From: Candidatus Gastranaerophilales bacterium
GTDB taxonomy: Bacteria > Cyanobacteriota > Vampirovibrionia > Gastranaerophilales > Gastranaerophilaceae
Assembly (NCBI GenBank): GCA_947589115.1
Contig: CANPZP010000019.1
Location: forward strand, 1-32,068
Direction of reading: 5' to 3'
DNA length: 32,068 bases
Shown here piece after piece: positions 7,435-8,120 of this stretch (its first letter is position 1; every line of letters begins with the position of its first letter). A model generated the notes under the pieces. It did no database searches. It saw only the letters and a list, made by a program, of their open reading frames with translations, and was not told where the DNA came from. Position numbers and translations under genes: made by a program.

Positions 7435-7516
7435 AATAACTCCTTTTTTATGCAGTATATCATAATAATTGAAAAATTTAAATTAATTTTATGAGAAGGA
7501 AACACATATAAAACAA

Positions 7517-7550
7517 TAGGGTGTTATTCAAAATAATAAATAACACCCTA
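7517..7550 (-). terminator. Intrinsic terminator of the 7571-7885 gene
   Basis: A perfect 12-bp inverted repeat (7517-7528 with 7539-7550, arm TAGGGTGTTATT) encloses a 10-nt loop. It starts 21 nt after the stop codon. On the minus strand the hairpin is followed by TTGTTTTATATG, a moderately U-rich tail. Confidence 0.75.
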
Positions 7551-7570
7551 AAATTACATTAAAATTTATA

Positions 7571-7885
7571 CTATTCTTCTTTTTTAAAATGATCTACAAT
7601 CGCATCTTTTGCTGCTTTTGCTGCTTTTTCTGCACCCACAAATGGTCCAATTACATCTTTAATATTATCTTTTACTGCATCAACAGCATCTCCGATATTA
7701 AGTGAACCGCCTTCAAGAACTGTATTCATTGCTTTTGCATAATCATCAATAAGAGTTACATCTTCAAAAATAGAAATAGCCTTATCTTTGATTTTGTCGC
7801 CGACACCTTCCTCCTGTTTTACACCCGGTTTAAGCTCAGCTGCTTTTTGTGATACGTCGTTAACGTTTGGGTTAAATTCTACCAT
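7571..7885 (-). CDS. Small acidic helical protein of unknown function
   Basis: The protein has 104 residues from the ATG at 7885, which has AAAGGAG 6 nt upstream. An in-frame ATG at 7900 exists, but it would place that Shine-Dalgarno inside the gene. The sequence (MVEFNPNVNDVSQKAAELK...) has many Lys, Asp and Ala. The C-terminal half (VGAEKAAKAAKDAIVDHFKKEE) looks amphipathic and helical. There is no signal peptide, strong membrane helix or cysteine. I recognise no family. It is flanked by its own terminator and by a promoter region holding a run of ten C on the coding strand, so its expression may be switchable; see findings. Confidence 0.85.
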   Translation of the reverse strand: MVEFNPNVNDVSQKAAELKPGVKQEEGVGDKIKDKAISIFEDVTLIDDYAKAMNTVLEGGSLNIGDAVDAVKDNIKDVIGPFVGAEKAAKAAKDAIVDHFKKEE

Positions 7886-7915
7886 AATTTCTCCTTTCAT
7901 ACTCTGTACAAGTGT

Positions 7916-7944
7916 ATTATCGGCGGGGGGGGGGAACTTTAGTA
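7916..7944 (-). promoter_or_regulatory. Putative promoter with C10 homopolymer in the spacer
   Basis: On the minus strand GATAAT (7921-7916) is a plausible -10 box, 30 nt before the ATG at 7885. The ten-base C run (plus-strand G 7925-7934) lies just upstream, where the -35/-10 spacer would be. The -35 region near 7944-7939 reads TACTAA, a poor match to consensus. It is the only long G/C homopolymer I saw in the window. Confidence 0.45.
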
Positions 7945-8120
7945 TTAATTTGAATATTTTTACATATCTTTACAAAAACAATAAATTTTAATTTTTAATG
8001 AATTGTATTTAATCCAATTTTGATGCGTAAATTAAACATTTTAAATAATTTTTTATTTAACAAAATTTAATATTATAAAATTAAAAGCAATTTTTATTTC
8101 TCAGCATCATTTAATAACTT

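Follow-up and report, generated by a model that had tools for sequence, protein, structure and literature searches.

Gene content and promoter of the locus

The window, a stretch of 32,068 nucleotides that constitutes contig C19 of a 1.82 Mb host genome in 98 contigs, shows on its minus strand a gene encoding a protein of 104 residues, which forms a monocistronic unit with the intrinsic terminator predicted right after it (Table 1). Most of the nearest named records are Candidatus Gastranaerophilales MAGs, and several come from animal guts. No relative of the protein was found in the 41 congeneric genomes (40 other species), GTDB contigs or viral contigs, nor in phages, Pfam, NCBIfam and PDB. 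One weak match to a PHROG of unknown function was obtained (E 2e-4 over 37 residues), and a single-sequence structure model, with a pLDDT of 49, was unusable. In nine relatives, about 80 bp separate the flanking ppiC-like gene from its divergent neighbour, and this stretch contains no gene, tract or sigma-28 site, whereas the window has 686 bp at the same place. This difference makes it probable that gene and promoter were acquired together, or else lost together in other genomes.

Table 1. Features of the 104-residue gene, its promoter and the surrounding segment.
Feature	Position	Strand	Basis
Segment of 686 bp (gene and promoter) absent from nine relatives	7435..8120	.	locus comparison
Intrinsic terminator right after the gene	7517..7550	-	terminator prediction
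Orphan gene of 104 residues downstream of the promoter, stop codon included	7571..7885	-	no convincing relative
Ribosome-binding site AAAGGAG	7891..7897	-	sequence
Predicted transcription start region	7909..7911	-	inferred from the -10 position
Sigma-28 -10 element GCCGATAA, consensus matched in full	7917..7924	-	consensus from PMC2859248
C10 homopolymer (G10 on the plus strand), promoter spacer	7925..7934	-	sequence, run census
Sigma-28 -35 element TAAAGTT (consensus TAAAGTTT)	7935..7941	-	consensus from PMC2859248
TTTGTAA upstream element, common to many sigma-28 promoters of the genus	7970..7976	-	site enrichment

From 7941 down to 7883, the minus strand reads TAAAGTT-C10-GCCGATAA-N19-AAAGGAG-N5-ATG. 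The run of ten bases that the first-pass annotation had pointed out is present at 7925-7934, as G10 on the plus strand (TCGGC-GGGGGGGGGG-AACTTTAGTATT) and as C10 when read along the 104-residue gene. As had been proposed, it separates two promoter elements ahead of this small gene, here TAAAGTT and GCCGATAA, both of which adjoin the run; since the tract is the spacer, a change in its length would alter the -35/-10 distance. The promoter elements are those of sigma-28, whose consensus is TAAAGTTT-n11-GCCGATAA (PMC2859248): TAAAGTT(C) and GCCGATAA agree with it at 15 of 16 positions. The gap between TAAA and GCCGATAA is 13 at C10, short of the n11 of the consensus (gap 15; 15-16 in the genus), and C12-C13 would bring it within 15-16. 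The cognate sigma factor is encoded in the same genome (G000:C26:2348-3010) and scores 241.5 bits with the FliA_WhiG profile, whose cut-off is 189.6. Judged from these elements, the promoter is of the sigma-28 (FliA) type and not of the sigma-70 type, and it is presumably FliA that uses it.

The first-pass annotation had read GATAAT as the -10 hexamer of a sigma-70 promoter with the tract as its spacer. GATAAT is a fair -10 hexamer, but this region (7917-7922, minus strand) belongs to GCCGATAAT, there is no -35 hexamer at 16-18 nt, and a scan for sigma-70-type promoters returned nothing at the site, so that no match of this type uses GATAAT. The TAAAGTT and GCC- sequences flanking the tract are explained by sigma-28 only, in an arrangement that recurs 13 more times, and a sigma-70 promoter is thus highly improbable here. 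A coding-frame switch was also discarded: no open reading frame across the tract is switched.

Sigma-28 spacing in the genus

Pairs of TAAAG and GCCGATA in the own genome show a peak at gap 15, with nine matches against zero to two at each gap from 8 to 14, and these sites have genes downstream. Across the 41 congeneric genomes, the 150 consensus sites listed show a TAAA-to-GCCGATA gap of 15 in 87 cases, of 16 in 57 and of other lengths in six, none of them being 13 or 14; the reversed-pattern control gave one match in the same 41 genomes. Among 38 other sigma-28 sites sampled in other species, 33 have a gene start 52-127 nt downstream, and therefore the sigma-28 regulon looks real. An element of the TTTGTAA/TTACAAA type is located about 25 nt upstream of TAAAG in 13 of 20 own sites and, in an independent set, in 16 of 33 sigma-28 sites, compared with 20% of controls. 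It is possibly an activator or UP site and may involve a second regulator.

Recurrence of tract-spaced sigma-28 promoters

The pattern TAAAG-N1-4-C7-N0-10-CCGAT, which admits gaps of about 8 to 21, was found at eight sites in seven species, and its reversed form at none. Six of these sites are beyond the own genome, each in a different species. The own genome contains, in addition to the window site, a twin (TAAAGTA-C9-GA-GCCGATAT) ahead of a gene encoding a protein of 210 residues. This twin, at G000:C36:12841, is predicted to be ON at C10-C11. G-tract versions were found five times in genome G008 and once in G010, which gives 14 tract-spaced sites in eight species, seven besides the own one. 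Twelve of the 14 are followed, 55-62 nt after TAAA, by a start codon supported by a ribosome-binding site; for all eight C-tract sites this distance is 56-61 nt. The proteins encoded downstream show no common family by eye. A mixed G/C-run search across the family gave mostly noise outside the genus, and the C-tract matches from other genera do not represent such promoters.

Nine of the 14 sites have a gap of 14, two have 13 (the window site included), and one each has 15, 16 and 18. These gaps differ from those of the tract-free sites (15-16) with a Fisher p of ~3e-12, a value which, like those for the upstream element, refers to sites taken from a pattern search in species of one genus and hence not independent. 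The simplest reading is that most of the sequenced tract promoters would be one or two slips off the working distance. Alternatively, gaps of 13-14 may be functional, the tract acting as a rheostat or being a tolerated mutational product instead of an ON/OFF switch in the sigma-28 spacer. The nine promoters that share gap 14 could then reveal a working or intermediate spacing for G/C-tract spacers, and in G008 the combinations G10+AATT and G9+AATTT give an equal total, as if total length were held. Against this stand the complete lack of gaps 13 and 14 in the listed tract-free consensus sites and the spread of the tract sites themselves, with the window at 13 and others at 15, 16 and 18, and this alternative is considered unlikely.

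Homopolymer tracts in the window and in the genome

In the window, which has a GC content of 30.5%, no G or C run other than the tract exceeds five, and a run of the G10 type is expected from base composition about 4e-4 times per 32 kb on both strands. The host genome contains 105 G9 places. All results rest on assembled sequence, and homopolymer lengths in MAGs are uncertain. A census of 1.72 Mb of the host genome gives 378 G/C runs of length 5, 23 of 6, one of 7, two of 8, 52 of 9, 20 of 10, three of 11 and one of 12. The distribution is bimodal and far outside chance: about 76 runs are of at least 9, and lengths 7-8 are nearly absent, which places the window tract within a set of contingency tracts spread over the genome. 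The rarity ascribed to G10 in this AT-rich genome thus describes the window but not the genome. Likewise, the idea of a switch is retained for a tract between promoter elements, but not as a singular feature, as it is one of many tracts, 39 of 77 being in prepilin-like genes. At 7925-7934, the run is long enough to slip and beyond chance, and it occupies a position, the spacer between -35 and -10, where its length should alter expression.

Poly-G artefacts occur in short-read assemblies, and G008 shows long poly-G runs near contig ends, plus Ns, as would be expected if such tracts were neutral or an assembly artefact with no regulatory tie. The window tract is nevertheless internal and has unique flanks, and the bimodal run lengths, together with the location of tracts at repeated functional positions (prepilin leaders and sigma-28 spacers), leave very little probability for this explanation.

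Proposed switch and comparison with known systems

It is likely that a sigma-28 (FliA) promoter with the C10 tract as its spacer drives the lineage-specific 104-residue gene, and that slippage would reset the distance between TAAA and GCCGATA. Slipped-strand mispairing at C10 would change the number of C residues and, with it, this distance; because the tract forms the promoter spacer, expression of the gene should rise or fall when a base is gained or lost. The sequenced C10 state is predicted to be low or OFF, since its gap of 13 is two short of the genus-wide 15-16, and two or three extra C residues (C12-C13) would restore a full-strength promoter. The strict spacing rule thus gives a sharp prediction, that cells with C12-C13 would be ON. 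The sequence elements, the FliA gene, the spacing rule of the genus, the recurrence before unrelated genes and the genome-wide tracts are documented by the sequences, and the length change at the window locus, its transcriptional effect and the use of the promoter by FliA are inferred.

Pathogens provide the best-known cases of homopolymer phase variation. The window host has a large set of homopolymer tracts and belongs to an uncultured, non-photosynthetic lineage of gut bacteria with cyanobacterial relatives; in the open-access literature, a full-text search for 'Gastranaerophilales' together with 'phase variation' yielded no paper. If a slippage-prone tract separates sigma-28 elements, the expression of some members of a flagellar-class regulon would vary at random from one cell to the next.

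The nadA gene of Neisseria meningitidis, which had been offered as a comparison, resembles the window in that repeat length controls transcription, but its tract is a TAAA repeat located distally upstream of the promoter, which acts through NadR operators (PMC2791445). The better parallels are porA, opc and fetA of Neisseria, where a homopolymer between -10 and -35 sets, by its length, the distance between both elements, as at the window (PMC2791445). These promoters are not described as sigma-28 in that source, whereas the window elements are of this type, and the window design is found in a gut bacterium of a cyanobacterial lineage and is common to several unrelated genes. In Chlamydia trachomatis, the -35 and -10 elements of lpxC are separated by a poly(A) tract whose length is heterogeneous among reads (PMC4514472); it differs in being an A-tract at a single locus not presented as sigma-28. 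The class 3 flagellar promoters recognised by FliA share the same elements (PMC2859248), but the window spacer is a slippage-prone homopolymer and the own genome lacks flagellin and the filament cap.

Flagellar apparatus and sigma-28 regulon

The own genome contains genes encoding FlhA, FliI, FliF, FliE, FlgB, FlgC and FlgF/G-like proteins. Flagellar export and rod genes and fliA are located at G000:C13:27952-29928 and C26:2348-3010. A second FHIPEP match, at G000:C11:26326-27351 (L015:928-2391), covers the C-terminal half only and corresponds to a 487-residue protein from which the membrane part is seemingly absent. A search of the 41 genomes of the genus found flagellin in two of them and no copy of FliD, the filament cap. 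Partial flagellar sets of this order have been read as loss or decay (PMC3787301 for MEL.A1; PMC4040986).

Tract-free sigma-28-like sites of the own genome precede genes encoding proteins with annexin repeats, a calpain-like protease domain or collagen repeats (L037:10424-11887, L093:7374-8162 and L034:11030-13477, respectively), and many unknowns. Because FlhA is present but flagellin is restricted to two genomes and the filament cap to none, and because annexin, collagen and calpain-like products lie behind sigma-28-like sites, the regulon may serve a flagellum-derived secretion or export apparatus. The tightly held spacing of a sigma-28 regulon that spans the genus suggests that the apparatus is still used. 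A tentative and rather doubtful extension would be a filament-less flagellum kept as a protein-export machine, with a sigma-28 regulon of fast-changing proteins, some of them homopolymer-switched and differing from cell to cell. S[IVL]F, a candidate for a common secretion motif, was overrepresented in the sets from which it had been derived, but three of 33 independent products contain it against a background of 7.7%, which is no enrichment, and it was dropped.

Other tracts of the genome

The 39 tracts in prepilin-like genes, among the 77 of at least 8, are located in the 5' part of genes with a class III signal (e.g., GGKTLAFTLSEVLITL). Most consist of C9 or G9 and leave the gene out of frame, three keep the frame, and two lie at contig edges, where the frame cannot be judged. 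Examples are found at L011:70, L014:9218, L017:15901, L034:453 and :662, and L056:1362 and :1673. In the assembly, nearly all of these approximately 39 genes stand out of frame, a picture that resembles a silent repertoire in which few copies are ON. A fixed programmed frameshift was rejected, since comparable sites in a sister species have lengths ranging from 8 to 11, although the pattern used there also caught opposite-strand G-leader sites and the counts per leader type are not clean. A near-identical pilin leader (L035:68 and L046:8020, contigs C41 and C68) is present with C9 at one contig end and with C10 at another, and represents either a second copy or a length mixture in the population.

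Twelve other coding genes would be switched by their tracts, six being in frame and six out of frame. Homologous tracts are present in three paralogues, as G9 out of frame at L012:5234 and as G10 in frame at L020:15585 and L047:6965; such length differences between homologous tracts of the genome speak in favour of the proposed slippage. Two cytidylyltransferase-like genes show a G10 near their 3' end (L037:759 and L037:1572), which would alter the C-terminus only. At L066:19605, a G9 separates the intact tRNA-like sequence from a partly copied tRNA-like 5' end, perhaps an integration scar.
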